NCBI GenBank assembly: GCA_947502495.1
Contig: CANNAC010000003.1
Location: 248,001-312,000 of the forward strand
From: an uncultured Flavobacteriaceae bacterium
GTDB taxonomy: Bacteria; Bacteroidota; Bacteroidia; Flavobacteriales; Flavobacteriaceae
Length of the DNA stretch: 64,000 nt
Direction of reading: 5' to 3'
In this document: piece by piece, positions 54,661-63,244 of the stretch
How the letters are laid out: each line of letters starts with the position of its first letter
Numbering within the stretch: position 1 is the stretch's first letter
Made by a program: the position numbers and the translations under genes
Notes under the pieces: model-generated
Told to the model about the DNA's origin: nothing
What the model saw: only the letters and a program-made list of their open reading frames with translations
Databases searched by the model: none

Positions 54661-54729
54661 AAAAGCTATTAATAATGTTTTAAAAAGCGTTTTGTTTAAT
54701 TATCTTTGTGGCACTTAAAAAAAGAATAT

Positions 54730-55161
54730 ATGTCAATTTCAGATTTATTTGATAGTGGATTTAAAAAGCGTAATGAAGACCATTTTGCATCAATTGTTAG
54801 AGTTGCAATGGATGACGGTGTTATTACAGATGAAGAAAAGGCGTTTTTAGATCGTTTAGCTAGAAATTTAGATATTAGCGAAGGGGATTATGCCATCATT
54901 TTAAAGGATTATGCTTCGCATCATATTAATCCTCCAACTTCTTACGATAATCGATTAGAGCGTTTGTATGATTTGTCTAGAATGGTTTATGTAGATCATA
55001 TTAAAGGAGATCATGAAGAACTTGTTTTACGTAAGATTGCAGTTGGTTTAGGTTTTAAGCCTGAAAACGTGAAATATGTAGTAGATAAGGCACTTACTTT
55101 GGTTAGTAATAAAGTGGATTTAGATACTTTTATGGAAGAAATTAAAACAATGAGTACATAA
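54730..55161 (+). CDS. TerB-like protein
   Basis: ASIVRVAMDDGVITDEEKAFLDRLARNLDISEGDYAIIL; ATG at 54730 preferred over TTG at 54706. Confidence 0.75.
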   Translation: MSISDLFDSGFKKRNEDHFASIVRVAMDDGVITDEEKAFLDRLARNLDISEGDYAIILKDYASHHINPPTSYDNRLERLYDLSRMVYVDHIKGDHEELVLRKIAVGLGFKPENVKYVVDKALTLVSNKVDLDTFMEEIKTMST

Positions 55162-55183: not shown

Positions 55184-55219
55184 AAAAAAGGCGAACTATT
55201 ATATAGTTCGCCTTTTTTT
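55184..55219. terminator. Bidirectional terminator between convergent terB-like gene and histidine kinase
   Basis: AAAAAAGGCGAACTA-ttat-ATAGTTCGCCTTTTTTT. Confidence 0.9.
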
Positions 55220-56732
55220 ATTTTAAGTATTTTCGGATGGTTTTTAGTAAACTTTTCTCGTCAAAGGGTTTACTAATAACATCGTTTATTTTTGCTTTTT
55301 TGTAGCGTTTTAAATCTTCAGGAAATACTTTTCCTGTTAAGGCTAGAATAGGAATTTTTTTAAGTTCTTTTTCTGGTAGCTGTCTAATTTCTATGGCAAG
55401 TTGATCTCCAGTGGTATTTGGTAGATTGATATCCATTAAAATGATATCCGGCTTTTGATTTTTTAGGGTATCAATTAGCGTATCTGGATTGGTAACGATA
55501 TCTAAATAAAACTTTCCTTGAGCGGCTAAAATTTTAAGTACAGAGAGTTGCGTTATTTCTGAGTTTTCTACTAAAAGAATATGGTATTTGTCTTTTTCTA
55601 GTTTTTCTTCAGTAGCAACCTCTACTTTTTTATCTTTTGTTTTTGTATCTAATTTAAAACTTAAATTTAAAGCGAAAGAAGTCCCTTCGTTAAAGGTGCT
55701 ATCAATAGAAATATTACCATCCATTAAGGCTACTAAGTTTTTTACAATGGCTAAACCTAATCCTGTACCTTTATTTCTTTGGGTTTTATCTACTTGGGTG
55801 AAGCTTGTGAAAACTTTATCTAGGTTTTCTTTTTCTATGCCAATTCCTGTATCTATAATTTGAAAATGGATACTTGCTTTATTTGCTCTTACTTGATTTA
55901 AAGAAACATTTAAAGTGATACTACCTTTGGTGGTGTACTTAATTGCATTGTCTATTAGATTGCCAAGTATTTGTTTTAATCTATACGGATCCCCAATGAT
56001 TTGTGGTGGTAATTTTTCTCCAATAGTACTAAGAAAAGTTAATCCTTTTTCTTCTGCTTTTATTTTATAGGTGAATATAAATTCTTCTAAAAATTCGTTT
56101 AAGTTAAAGGAGTCTTCTATTAGATTAAGTTTACCAACTTCTATTTTAGAAATATCTAAAATGTCTTCAATCATATGTTTTAAATGATTGGAAGATGTGT
56201 TGATAATGTTTAGGTAATCTTTTTGTTCGGAGTCTAGATTGGTTTTTCCTAAGATATCAACAAAGGTTCCAATACCAGAAAGAGGTTCTCTAATTTCATG
56301 GCTAAAATTAGCGATGAAGGTGTTTTTAAAGTCCTCTTTTTCTATTAAATATTTGTTTTTTAATTCAAGAATTTGAGAGTCTATAACTGATTCGTTTCTC
56401 TTTTGCGCAGTTAATTGATAGTTGTTGTAATGCGTTGTTAAGTCTTGAATTATTAGTAATGGTTGTGTTTTAGAAAACGTTTTAAGCGTAATATCTGCTA
56501 TTATACTTTTATCATCTGTTTCTAAATGAATACATGAGAACAAAAACTCTTCGTCTTTTTTGGTGTCTAATAAAGTGGTAAGACTCTCGAAGAAAGGATG
56601 TAAGTTGGTTACATTCTGCTTGGTAACATTTGAAAAGAAAGTATTATCTGAATCTAAGATAATACCTTTTTTATCCATAATTAGATATTGAATAATAGCT
56701 TTTTCATGTGCTATTTTGTATTCTGCAAGCAT
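55218..56732 (-). CDS. Soluble hybrid histidine kinase/response regulator (sensor-like N-terminus, HisKA, HATPase, REC)
   Basis: FIANFSHEIREPLSGIGTF; KGTGLGLAIVKNLVALMDG; C-terminal ILMDINLPNTTGDQLA; no TM segment seen. Confidence 0.9.
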   Translation of the reverse strand: MLAEYKIAHEKAIIQYLIMDKKGIILDSDNTFFSNVTKQNVTNLHPFFESLTTLLDTKKDEEFLFSCIHLETDDKSIIADITLKTFSKTQPLLIIQDLTTHYNNYQLTAQKRNESVIDSQILELKNKYLIEKEDFKNTFIANFSHEIREPLSGIGTFVDILGKTNLDSEQKDYLNIINTSSNHLKHMIEDILDISKIEVGKLNLIEDSFNLNEFLEEFIFTYKIKAEEKGLTFLSTIGEKLPPQIIGDPYRLKQILGNLIDNAIKYTTKGSITLNVSLNQVRANKASIHFQIIDTGIGIEKENLDKVFTSFTQVDKTQRNKGTGLGLAIVKNLVALMDGNISIDSTFNEGTSFALNLSFKLDTKTKDKKVEVATEEKLEKDKYHILLVENSEITQLSVLKILAAQGKFYLDIVTNPDTLIDTLKNQKPDIILMDINLPNTTGDQLAIEIRQLPEKELKKIPILALTGKVFPEDLKRYKKAKINDVISKPFDEKSLLKTIRKYLK

Positions 56733-56743
56733 TATTCTTGAGT

Positions 56744-57235
56744 TTAGGAAATTAGTTGTTTAGCTAAAGTAGAGAATAGATCATTAACTTTAGTATTTGC
56801 TTTTGCGCTTGTGTAAAAATCGGTGAACGACCCAAAAACACCGTTGTTCTGCTTAATGAAGTCTCTGGTAACTAAATCCTTTTTGTTTCCAACTACTTTT
56901 ATTGGAATGCTTGGATAGTTTGTTTTAATAAAATTTAAATCACTTTCTAATTGCGCATAGGTAGTTGGTCTAGTAAGATCATATACATATATCATACCAC
57001 TAGTACCTAACATATAAGAAGGTCTTGTGTTGGTTATATCATCGTTACCTTCTAAATCCCATATGATTAAAGAAACGGTTTCTTTTGGAGAAATTACAAC
57101 TTCTTTTTTTAAGATATGTACCCCAATAGTTACTTTATAATTGTCTGTAAAGGTGTCTTCAACAAAACGTCTTATAAGTGAAGATTTACCAACGCCAAAG
57201 TGACCTAGTAGTACTATTTTTTTAGAGATATTCAT
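56744..57235 (-). CDS. Ras-like small GTPase
   Basis: G1 LGHFGVGKSSL; G3 WDLEGND; G4 GNKKDL; G5 TSAKA. Confidence 0.88.
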   Translation of the reverse strand: MNISKKIVLLGHFGVGKSSLIRRFVEDTFTDNYKVTIGVHILKKEVVISPKETVSLIIWDLEGNDDITNTRPSYMLGTSGMIYVYDLTRPTTYAQLESDLNFIKTNYPSIPIKVVGNKKDLVTRDFIKQNNGVFGSFTDFYTSAKANTKVNDLFSTLAKQLIS

Positions 57236-58040
57236 TAGCAAAATATGCTTTTAATTTTTTAGTTAAAGATTCTTTATTTCTTAAATCTGTTTGGTTTATT
57301 GTGTTTTGAGCAAAATCTAGGAGTTTGTCTTCTAATGCACTTTTATGAGTAGCATTAAATATGCCAGAAATTACAACTGCGATATAATAAGATGAAAAAT
57401 TTTGAATATAAATACTATAGGTTTCATATTCAATGAGCTCTAGATCTTGATCGCTTTTTTTAAATGCATCTTCTACAAAACTTTTAATTGCAGTTAGCAT
57501 TCCGGCAACCATATCTTCATCTATATCATCTGTTTTGGAGTATTTTGAAATGAGTAAACCAGACCCTTTTTCAATGACCATAAACTGATTTAATCTTGGA
57601 GCATGTTGCTCTTGTAAAATTAAATCGGCTTCACTAACACCAGATGTTTTCGCTTTAAATTTACGTTTAAAATTTTTGAAAGAAAAGGTATTATCTATTT
57701 GTTGGTTTATTTTTTCGGATAAAAGTTTAAATTCATTTTGAATGTACTTTTTTATCATTCTCCCTAGAATAGGATATAATGCTTCTACTACTGCGTCTTG
57801 AGAGTTTTTTATCTCTGTTTTTAGAGCTTCTGTAATTGTAGGTCCGAGTGTTTCTGGTATTTCTAGAACAAATTTATTTAATTGATCTTGAATAATTGGG
57901 TTTACCTTTTCGGATAAATTTGTTTTTTGATTTATTGTTTCTTCTAGAATTTTAATTTTTTCATGAATCGACAAAGCGTATTCTCTCTCATCTGTTAATA
58001 AGATGTCTTTAAGAACTTTAAGTTTATCTTCTTGATTCAT
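57222..58040 (-). CDS. Uncharacterised protein with helical N-terminus and roadblock/longin-like C-terminal region
   Basis: Predicted beta-beta-alpha-beta-beta-beta-alpha order in NQFMVIEKGSGLLISKY...MVAGMLTAIKSFVEDAF...LELIEYETYSIYIQNFSSYYIAVVISG...; overlaps GTPase gene. Confidence 0.55.
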   Translation of the reverse strand: MNQEDKLKVLKDILLTDEREYALSIHEKIKILEETINQKTNLSEKVNPIIQDQLNKFVLEIPETLGPTITEALKTEIKNSQDAVVEALYPILGRMIKKYIQNEFKLLSEKINQQIDNTFSFKNFKRKFKAKTSGVSEADLILQEQHAPRLNQFMVIEKGSGLLISKYSKTDDIDEDMVAGMLTAIKSFVEDAFKKSDQDLELIEYETYSIYIQNFSSYYIAVVISGIFNATHKSALEDKLLDFAQNTINQTDLRNKESLTKKLKAYFANEYL

Positions 58041-58058
58041 AAGTGCCAGTAATTTGTA

Positions 58059-58421
58059 TTACTTGCTTATTTTTTCTCCAAGATTCATTAATAAATCACC
58101 TAGCAGTTTTCTGTCTAATTTCTTGTCATCCAGAGTATCTGCTTTGTCATTAAAAGAATTTTCAAGATCTGTAATTCTTATATTAATGTCGGTACTTAAG
58201 TTATCAATATTTTGAAGTAATTCTTTTCTAACATCATCTACCAAGTTTTCTAATTCTTGCTTTTTGGAAAGAATGTCATTTTTTACAGATTCAAACTCAC
58301 TATCGTAAGCTTGCATGTTTTCTCCAAAAATTAGCTGTTTTATAGCATCAATTTTGGTGGAAGCTTCTACATCTGAATTATGTGTTGTCGTATTGGTATT
58401 TGTAAGATTTTCTTTAGCCAT
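58059..58421 (-). CDS. Small coiled-coil protein
   Basis: Charged heptad-like region SEFESVKNDILSKKQELENLVDDVRKELLQNIDNLSTDINIRITDLENSFNDK; same strand and close to GTPase module. Confidence 0.65.
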   Translation of the reverse strand: MAKENLTNTNTTTHNSDVEASTKIDAIKQLIFGENMQAYDSEFESVKNDILSKKQELENLVDDVRKELLQNIDNLSTDINIRITDLENSFNDKADTLDDKKLDRKLLGDLLMNLGEKISK

Positions 58422-58493
58422 TATGGTTTAGCTTTTGTTTAAAAAAGTAATGTACAAAAATAATGAAAAAGTAAGGACTTAAACTAGTAATTT

Positions 58494-61423: not shown

Positions 61424-63244
61424 ATGAGTCTAGTAACCGCAAAAGAAGTAGCAAAAGCCATACACGTAGATAAGTATGGTTTTCTTGGTACATTCTTTGG
61501 TTGGCTTCTAATGAAGGTTTTAAAAATATCAACCTTAAATAGAGTTTACAATAGAAATAAACATTTAGAAGGTTTGCCTTTTTTGGAGGCTATTTTAGAC
61601 GAATTCCAGATAAAATTCGAAATTCCTGAAGAAGATTTAAAACGTTTACCAAAAGATGGAGCATACATAACTGTATCTAACCATCCACTTGGAGGCATCG
61701 ATGGTGTTTTGCTTTTAAAGCTGATGCTAGAGCAAAGAAAAGACTTTAAAATAATTGCTAATTTCTTGCTTCATCGTATTGCGCCTATGAAACCTTTTAT
61801 CATGCCTGTAAATCCTTTTGAAGACAGAAAAGATATTAAGTCTAGTGTTGCAGGTTTTAAAAATTCTATTTTGCATTTACGTGACGGACATCCACTTGGT
61901 GTGTTTCCTGCGGGAGAAGTTTCTACCTATAGAGATGGTAAATTAGTGGTAGATAAACCTTGGGAAGAAACTGCAATCAAGCTTATTAAAAAAGCAGAAG
62001 TTCCTGTAGTGCCTATTTATTTTCACGCAAAGAACTCTAGATTATTTTATAAGCTATCTAAAATTAGCGATACATTTAGAACTGCAAAATTACCATCCGA
62101 AGTTTTAACACAAAAACGTAGAACTATTAAAGTTCGAATAGGAAAACCAATTAGTGTAAAAGATCAAAGTGAGCATGAAACGATTGAAAGTCTATCGGAG
62201 TTTTTAAGAAAGAAAACCTACATGTTATCGCATGCTTTTGAAGATGAACCTAAAATTCTAGAGAACCTTTCTAATACATTAAAAACGCCAGCAAAACCAC
62301 CAAAGCGCATTGTAACTCCAGTAAGTATGGAGTCTATGATAGAAGAAGTGGAAGCGCTACGAAAAGATGATTTAAGGTTGTTACAAAGTAAGAACTATGA
62401 GGTCTTTTTAACACCAGCAAGCAAAATTCCTAATATCCTTCATGAAATTGGTCGTTTACGCGAAATTACATTTAGAGAAGTTGGTGAAGGTACTAATGAA
62501 GCTATAGATTTAGATGATTTTGACAACTATTACCATCACATGTTTCTTTGGGATAACGTAACCAATACATTGGCGGGAGCATATAGAATGGGACTAGGTT
62601 CTCAAATATTTGCTAAATATGGTATTGATGGTTTTTACCTGCAAGATTTGTTTCGATTTGAGCCAGAATTATATAAAATGATGAGCCAATCTATAGAAAT
62701 GGGTAGAGCTTTCATTATTAAAAGTTACCAACAAAAACCAATGCCTTTATTTTTGCTTTGGAAAGGAATTGTACATACTACATTACGTTATCCAGAACAT
62801 AAATTTTTAATTGGTGGTGTAAGTATTAGTAATCAGTTTTCAAATTTCTCAAAATCGTTAATGATCGAGTTTATGAAATCGAATTACTATGATCCTTATG
62901 TTGCGCAATATGTGCATCCTAAAAAAGAATTTAAAGTGGTTTTAAAAGACGCAGATAAAGACTTTGTTTTTGATGCTGCTGAAGCGGATTTAAACAAGTT
63001 CGATAAAATTATTGATGAAGTAGAACCAGGTGCATTACGACTTCCGGTGTTGCTTAAAAAATACATTAAACAGAATGCTAGGTTGGTAGCTTTTAATGTG
63101 GATCCTTTATTTAATAATGCTGTCGATGGTTTAATGTATATTAAAATTGCCGATTTACCAGAAAGCACGGTTCGTCCGGTTATGGAAGAATTTCAAGCAG
63201 AATTAGAACATAAGCTTGCTAGTGAAAACGCAGAAGAAGAATAA
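61424..63244 (+). CDS. Fused PlsC-like acyltransferase / hemolysin-like (OlsB-type) N-acyltransferase, OlsF-like
   Basis: N-terminal ISNHPLGGIDGVLL and GVFPAGEVSTYRDGK; C-terminal IGRLREITFREVGEGT...YYHHMFLWD...GAYRMGLG. Confidence 0.82.
   Translation: MSLVTAKEVAKAIHVDKYGFLGTFFGWLLMKVLKISTLNRVYNRNKHLEGLPFLEAILDEFQIKFEIPEEDLKRLPKDGAYITVSNHPLGGIDGVLLLKLMLEQRKDFKIIANFLLHRIAPMKPFIMPVNPFEDRKDIKSSVAGFKNSILHLRDGHPLGVFPAGEVSTYRDGKLVVDKPWEETAIKLIKKAEVPVVPIYFHAKNSRLFYKLSKISDTFRTAKLPSEVLTQKRRTIKVRIGKPISVKDQSEHETIESLSEFLRKKTYMLSHAFEDEPKILENLSNTLKTPAKPPKRIVTPVSMESMIEEVEALRKDDLRLLQSKNYEVFLTPASKIPNILHEIGRLREITFREVGEGTNEAIDLDDFDNYYHHMFLWDNVTNTLAGAYRMGLGSQIFAKYGIDGFYLQDLFRFEPELYKMMSQSIEMGRAFIIKSYQQKPMPLFLLWKGIVHTTLRYPEHKFLIGGVSISNQFSNFSKSLMIEFMKSNYYDPYVAQYVHPKKEFKVVLKDADKDFVFDAAEADLNKFDKIIDEVEPGALRLPVLLKKYIKQNARLVAFNVDPLFNNAVDGLMYIKIADLPESTVRPVMEEFQAELEHKLASENAEEE

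Follow-up and report, generated by a model that had tools for sequence, protein, structure and literature searches.

A Group 1 Rup-type GTPase operon of a marine Flavobacteriaceae bacterium and the roadblock/longin-like and PAS-like domains predicted in its products

In the 64,000-nucleotide stretch of DNA analyzed here (the window), which comes from a marine Flavobacteriaceae bacterium whose closest relatives are Lacinutrix and Oceanihabitans, four compact genes on the minus strand (55218-58421) encode, in this order, a 120-aa coiled-coil protein, a 272-aa protein, a Ras-like small GTPase and a hybrid histidine kinase. Judged by its gene neighbourhood and GTPase motifs, this operon almost certainly belongs to the Group 1 Rup system described by Wuichet and Søgaard-Andersen in 2014 (PMC4316618), because it agrees with that description on every point that we examined. 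New here are the roadblock/longin-like fold predicted for what was published as an unknown domain, the PAS-like N-terminus of the kinase as an apparently constant partner of the GTPase, the varied effectors, and a branch of the system without a membrane anchor. The two domain predictions turn an unannotated neighbourhood into a testable circuit of switch, adaptor and effector. The genes and domains concerned are as follows.

58059..58421, minus strand: gene 1, soluble coiled-coil protein, 120 aa, first in the operon (open reading frame, neighbourhood)
57222..58040, minus strand: gene 2, 272-aa protein with a helical N-terminal half (residues ~1-145) and a predicted roadblock/longin-like domain (~149-246) (AlphaFold2, Foldseek, hhalign)
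57303..57596, minus strand: predicted roadblock/longin-like domain of gene 2, residues 149-246 (AlphaFold2, Foldseek, hhalign)
56744..57235, minus strand: gene 3, Ras/Rab-like small GTPase of the Rup family, Group 1 type (Pfam Ras, G motifs)
55218..56732, minus strand: gene 4, soluble hybrid kinase, 504 aa, PAS-like (1-~110), HisKA, HATPase and REC (Pfam, AlphaFold2, Foldseek)
56391..56732, minus strand: PAS-like candidate GTPase-partner domain, residues 1-114 of the kinase (81 sequences and standalone copies)

Gene content and family membership

A listing of open reading frames contained all four genes at these coordinates, with 18 bp between genes 1 and 2, an overlap of about 14-20 bp between genes 2 and 3, and 11 bp between genes 3 and 4. 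The GTPase frame (56744-57241) encodes 165 aa from a TTG codon and 163 aa from the ATG at 57235; the ATG is the likelier start and retains the overlap with the stop of the upstream gene. The Kyte-Doolittle-19 maximum was at most 1.4 in all four proteins and no transmembrane segment was found in any of them by this measure, which is why we call them soluble. The kinase matched the Pfam families HATPase_c (2e-27), HisKA (2e-18) and Response_reg (3e-18), and its phospho-acceptor residues, His145 in HisKA and Asp434 in REC, are intact. A first-pass annotation of the window had described a compact minus-strand module of four genes with a Ras-like GTPase and a soluble HisKA-HATPase-REC kinase, and the reading frames, the Pfam matches and the lack of transmembrane segments bear this out. 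Gene 1 gave only weak matches to coiled-coil-type Pfam models, none above the cut-off, and its coiled coil was called from these and from the sequence; its conserved core reads 'SKIDAIKQLIFGENMQ.Y..EFE..K..I'.

The GTPase matched Pfam Ras (E=1.2e-31), had Ypt6/Rab as its closest sequence matches in the PDB, and outscored by a wide margin the other Ras matches in the host genome, which lie within larger reading frames. Its motifs are G1 GxxxxGK[ST]S, G3 WD(L/I)xG, G4 NKxD and G5 SAK. The G3 Asp was present in 82 of 82 GTPases compared, as were the N, K and D of NKxD, whereas the position of Gln-61 was variable (N27, T16, E10, Q9, K7); in the window GTPase, G3 reads WDLEGN, with Asn at this position. 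Bacteroidota MglA-type proteins have a T in G3 ('YTVPG' or 'YGTPG') in place of the Asp. Furthermore, the Pfam family of MglB-type proteins, Robl_LC7 (PF03259), gave zero matches anywhere in the host genome, even at E 10. On these two grounds we rejected membership of the MglA family and identity with the MglA/MglB pair.

Wuichet and Søgaard-Andersen divided the prokaryotic small GTPases of the Ras superfamily into MglA and Rup, and reported Group 1 Rup to be the prokaryotic sequences most similar to eukaryotic Rab, Ran, Ras and Rho (PMC4316618). According to their survey, Group 1 Rup lack the G3 glutamine, occur in hosts that include Bacteroidetes, and have three conserved neighbour genes. 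One of these encodes a coiled-coil protein, another a protein with a conserved domain of unknown type, after which a transmembrane helix and OmpA are often found, and the third an output protein, either a histidine kinase or a cyclic di-GMP enzyme, whose N-terminal region carries an invariant glutamine; the authors likened the neighbourhood to a conservon (PMC4316618). The window operon likewise combines Ras-like G1-G5 motifs and the G3 Asp with the lack of a conserved G3 Gln, a coiled-coil protein corresponding to the 'coiled-coil cytoplasmic protein' of that account, an adjacent conserved-domain protein, and an output protein with a conserved Gln in its N-terminal region. It differs in that the transmembrane and OmpA part, which is frequent in the source and present in homologues found here, is absent from this branch. 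In addition, the conserved domain is now predicted to be roadblock/longin-like and the output N-terminus PAS-like, and we observed sigma-54 outputs and standalone PAS-like copies, which are not mentioned in the passages of the survey that we consulted (PMC4316618). The first-pass annotation had put the module forward as a candidate for an undescribed system; this does not stand, since the 2014 survey already lists these four components as the neighbourhood of Group 1 Rup, and operons of a GTPase, a roadblock protein and a histidine kinase are also known as conservons (PMC4316618, PMC13343842).

The actinobacterial conservons (AGPS; CvnA-D, Mfp) resemble the operon in joining a Ras-like GTPase to a histidine kinase, a roadblock protein and another small protein. 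However, their GTPase is of the MglA family, CvnA is membrane-bound and CvnB is an MglB-type Robl_LC7 protein, and no CvnC homologue was recognised in the operon. We rejected membership of this class because the window GTPase is not of the MglA type, the kinase is soluble and Robl_LC7 is lacking.

Predicted folds of the 272-aa protein and the kinase N-terminus

Direct sequence searches of Pfam, NCBIfam and the PDB gave no significant match to the 272-aa protein, and Robl_LC7 did not match it; its roadblock/longin-like domain is visible by profile and fold methods only. In an AlphaFold2 model built from 28 sequences, the N-terminal half was helical and residues 149-246 formed the order strand-strand-helix-strand-strand-strand-helix, with a predicted local distance difference test score (pLDDT) of about 80. 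This bb-a-bbb-a order, together with structural and profile similarity, places the domain in the roadblock/longin fold class, on a model of moderate confidence. The top Foldseek matches of the model in the PDB were coatomer zeta, AP sigma, the Ykt6 longin domain, Mon1-Ccz1, Rag C-terminal domains, Ragulator and MglB. We also aligned a profile of 84 C-terminal domains with a Bacteroidota Robl_LC7 alignment by hhalign, which gave a probability of 81.5%, a P of 1.1e-5 and a score of 35.5; the controls scored at most 18.9 over 100 column shuffles, 13.1 for the reversed profile and 15.8 for the protein's own N-terminal half. The model, the Foldseek matches and the profile match thus uphold the roadblock/longin-like C-terminal pattern read in the first-pass annotation. 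The most conserved stretch, residues 180-193 (GMLTAIKSFVEDAF; from alignments), lies in the helix between strands 2 and 3 (175-192 in the model). The helix in the equivalent position of MglB, alpha-2, touches beta-2 of MglA in the crystal structure (PMC6785124).

Several results weigh against this assignment. The model of the whole protein is of moderate quality, with a pLDDT of 68 and a predicted template modelling (TM) score of 0.47, and the target-normalised TM-scores of the Foldseek matches were mostly 0.4-0.65. When the roadblock alignment was split, one subset matched weakly in hhalign (18%) and the other did not match, so that the sequence signal hinges on the pooled profile; the positive control failed too, as the two roadblock subsets did not recognise each other. 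With these points counted, the C-terminal domain very probably has a predicted roadblock/longin-like fold. The MglA/MglB pairs of Myxococcus and Thermus are similar in that a small GTPase stands beside a roadblock-fold partner and a conserved helix lies at the MglA-binding position of MglB, but the GTPase here is Rup/Rab-like with a G3 Asp, and its partner, which Robl_LC7 misses, has an N-terminal half that is long and helical. Mon1-Ccz1 and Ragulator, longin/roadblock regulators that act on Rab and Rag GTPases in eukaryotes, also pair this fold class with Ras-superfamily GTPases, a likeness at the level of the fold only. Rups have been stated in the 2014 survey to be uncoupled from MglB-type proteins (PMC4316618), and the predicted partner challenges this statement.

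The 272-aa protein has distant homologues in Bacteroidota that run to about 600 aa and consist of the domain, a transmembrane helix and OmpA. A hydrophobic helix followed the domain in 10 of 10 long homologues inspected, and OmpA was matched in the five that were scanned, the weakest of them (L066) lying just under the Pfam cut-off. The 272-aa protein, from which this anchor is missing, is a soluble form of the Rup-associated OmpA protein, and the Flavobacteriaceae version, having neither membrane nor OmpA parts, is handy for reconstitution. We also looked for an amphipathic-helix membrane anchor in the soluble form and found a basic stretch at residues 117-136 of low amphipathicity and hydrophobic moment, which might be in contact with the membrane.

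For the N-terminus of the kinase, we considered a second roadblock domain, since the order of helices and strands is similar, and rejected it. The hhalign probability against the roadblock profile was 14% and Foldseek returned LOV, PAS and PYP matches; therefore we call this region PAS-like. Its predicted PAS fold comes from an AlphaFold2 model of residues 1-210 with a mean pLDDT of 83, about 90 over residues 1-120; the Pfam PAS models did not detect it. Across 81 sequences, Q15, F47, D80, Y102, Q110 and N113 were near-invariant, and Q15 and Q110 were each present in 79, so that either could be the published invariant glutamine.

Linkage, co-inheritance and outputs in relatives

To follow the linkage suggested by the first-pass annotation, we used 29 loci retrieved by similarity to the 272-aa protein, 40 regions from Flavobacteriaceae genomes that partly overlap the first set, and 400 Flavobacteriaceae genomes. 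The order coiled-coil protein, 272-aa protein, GTPase and kinase was nearly constant across the 29 loci, in which the flanking genes were retained in some genera and swapped in others (e.g. Tamlana and Algibacter). All four genes occurred together in 38 of the 40 regions, confirming the linkage in relatives, and the gene-1 orthologue adjoined the 272-aa gene in all 40 and in most loci of the other sets. The two exceptions, L098 and L110, retained only the first two genes; in L098 the 272-aa gene has an in-frame stop and the GTPase sits on a different contig of that genome. The 272-aa protein was found in 87 of the 400 genomes and the GTPase in 84, all of them within those 87 (hypergeometric P about 1e-83, uncorrected for phylogeny); the remaining three comprised two partial matches and the genome of L110. 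Given that the order was kept in 38 of 40 loci and that co-occurrence was 84 of 84, the four-gene block is a real unit, beyond chance, carried by about 22% of the sampled Flavobacteriaceae genomes.

We also observed natural partial systems. L029 (5956-6780, in the set of 29 loci) and L110 (4297-5560) contain the coiled-coil and roadblock-like genes with no adjacent GTPase or kinase, and L064 (3573-5885) and L067 (3515-5826) contain pairs of the coiled-coil protein and the OmpA form, the GTPase and kinase being absent within the 10 kb retrieved.

The effector, by contrast with the constant N-terminal region, varies across lineages: it is a hybrid kinase, a kinase without REC, a kinase-REC-Hpt protein (L070), a degenerate kinase-like protein without a usable His (the pseudokinases of L038 and L039), a PAS-sigma-54 activator, or none. 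The sigma-54 activators were scanned in L059 and L060, and the N-terminus of the L058 protein marks it as a near-identical homologue; in L061-L063, a REC-sigma-54 regulator comes after the kinase. When aligned, these divergent outputs share a pattern in their N-terminal regions, with a Q close to the position of Q110, although the profile scored L070 only. In L042 the PAS-like domain, at 128 aa, makes up the entire fourth protein. In L091, L092 and L096 the GTPase is duplicated and standalone PAS-like proteins of 127-223 aa lie within the operon, two of them in L096, while L093 and L103 have one standalone copy beside a single GTPase. Because the domain stands alone or is copied beside GTPases while the attached effector varies, these data suggest that it, rather than the kinase, is the conserved GTPase partner and the constant fourth component.

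Two further observations concern genes at the end of the operon. In L019 (8935-10437), L020 (8933-10450), L075, L077 and L080, a second hybrid kinase follows the first in tandem, and this second copy has Asn in place of the REC Asp. At two distant loci, L038 (8493-9317) and L042 (7856-8650), the gene after the operon encodes a protein of 265-275 aa that is predicted to be secreted or to lie in the outer membrane; the two proteins are related.

Proposed mechanism, alternatives and flanking features

What we describe are gene content, gene order, co-inheritance, predicted folds, residue conservation and swappable effectors, from which we infer physical binding, the direction of the signal, a role in GTPase activation or nucleotide exchange, an input signal and a physiological output. 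In the mechanism that we slightly favour, the GTPase would act as a GDP/GTP switch whose state is set by the coiled-coil and roadblock-like proteins and which, by way of the PAS-like domain, gates the kinase. Binding the GTPase and governing its nucleotide state would fall to the roadblock-like domain of the 272-aa protein, probably with the help of the coiled-coil protein, by analogy with the action of MglB on MglA and of longin/roadblock proteins on Rab and Rag GTPases. The switch would then dock onto the PAS-like N-terminal domain and gate autophosphorylation or REC phosphorylation, or whichever effector is fused to it. We see about an even chance that the wider picture holds as a whole, namely that Group 1 Rup have a roadblock/longin-like partner, that the pairing spans MglA and Rup and may predate their split, foreshadowing the longin/roadblock proteins that regulate Rab and Rag, and that the core adaptor is a PAS-like GTPase-binding domain pluggable into kinases or sigma-54 activators.

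Some findings speak against the proposed kinase output. Many relatives have K, S, N or A instead of the REC Asp, which makes this output uncertain; therefore REC is not invariably a phospho-acceptor. An Hpt domain was searched for in the host genome and none was detected, so that we rejected a canonical phosphorelay through Hpt, although one relative, L070, has a fused Hpt. In the openly accessible papers that we searched, no Group 1 Rup system had been studied for interactions, GTPase activity or kinase activity; within this literature, the system is described yet experimentally uncharacterised apart from one report of transcription that the 2014 survey cites (PMC4316618).

The main rival reverses the flow. 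Here, the PAS-like domain or kinase would be the GTPase-activating side, supplying a catalytic Gln in trans as raised in the survey (PMC4316618), and the GTPase would have its output elsewhere. This is consistent with GTPases that lack a conserved Gln61, with Q15 and Q110 each in 79 of 81 N-terminal domains and a Q near Q110 also in sigma-54-type and other outputs, and with conservons, where the kinase is thought to be upstream of the GTPase. We nevertheless consider it rather unlikely, because distant members fuse the N-terminal region to sigma-54 activators, a terminal transcription output that fits an effector better than a GTPase-activating protein, and because Q15 and Q110, in or beside the PAS-like fold, may be structural. 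A reading as envelope-stress sensing, in which the OmpA-anchored form reads the state of the peptidoglycan and the soluble form is a cytoplasmic version with the same kind of output, would add an input to the favoured mechanism rather than replace it. The helix in all 10 long homologues and the OmpA matches (that of L066 just under the cut-off) point towards it; however, this branch has no transmembrane segment or OmpA and therefore misses a periplasmic sensor, and the basic stretch at 117-136 is of low amphipathicity, so that we regard it as unlikely.

The first-pass annotation also suggested that the module might serve polarity or gliding. Gliding is common in the host family, and in the operon a roadblock-like domain adjoins a small GTPase, as in an MglA/MglB-like polarity or gliding module. 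We found nothing in support of this link, which is highly improbable: the G3 Asp occurs in 82 of 82 GTPases versus T in the Bacteroidota MglA type, Robl_LC7 has no match in the genome, only about 22% of the family carry the system, the outputs of distant relatives end in sigma-54 regulators and are thus transcriptional, and the block holds no motility genes.

Outside the coding regions, one further feature was read from the letters.

58455..58462, minus strand: candidate operon promoter, -7 element TATTTTTG, 33 nt ahead of the start of gene 1

The element TATTTTTG fits TAnnTTTG, which we take to be the Bacteroidota -7 consensus, and is a possible promoter of the operon. The gene upstream of the operon is presumably one for fructose-bisphosphatase. 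Downstream, and convergent with the kinase gene, a TerB-domain protein is encoded on the plus strand (54706-55161); this neighbour is retained in Lacinutrix, Olleya and several Flavobacterium loci and not in Algibacter or Tamlana. Farther away, 61424-63244 on the plus strand encodes a 606-aa protein in which an acyltransferase (PF19576/PF01553) is fused to a GNAT domain (PF13444); it lies beside an aspartokinase-like reading frame and is possibly an aminolipid synthesis protein.

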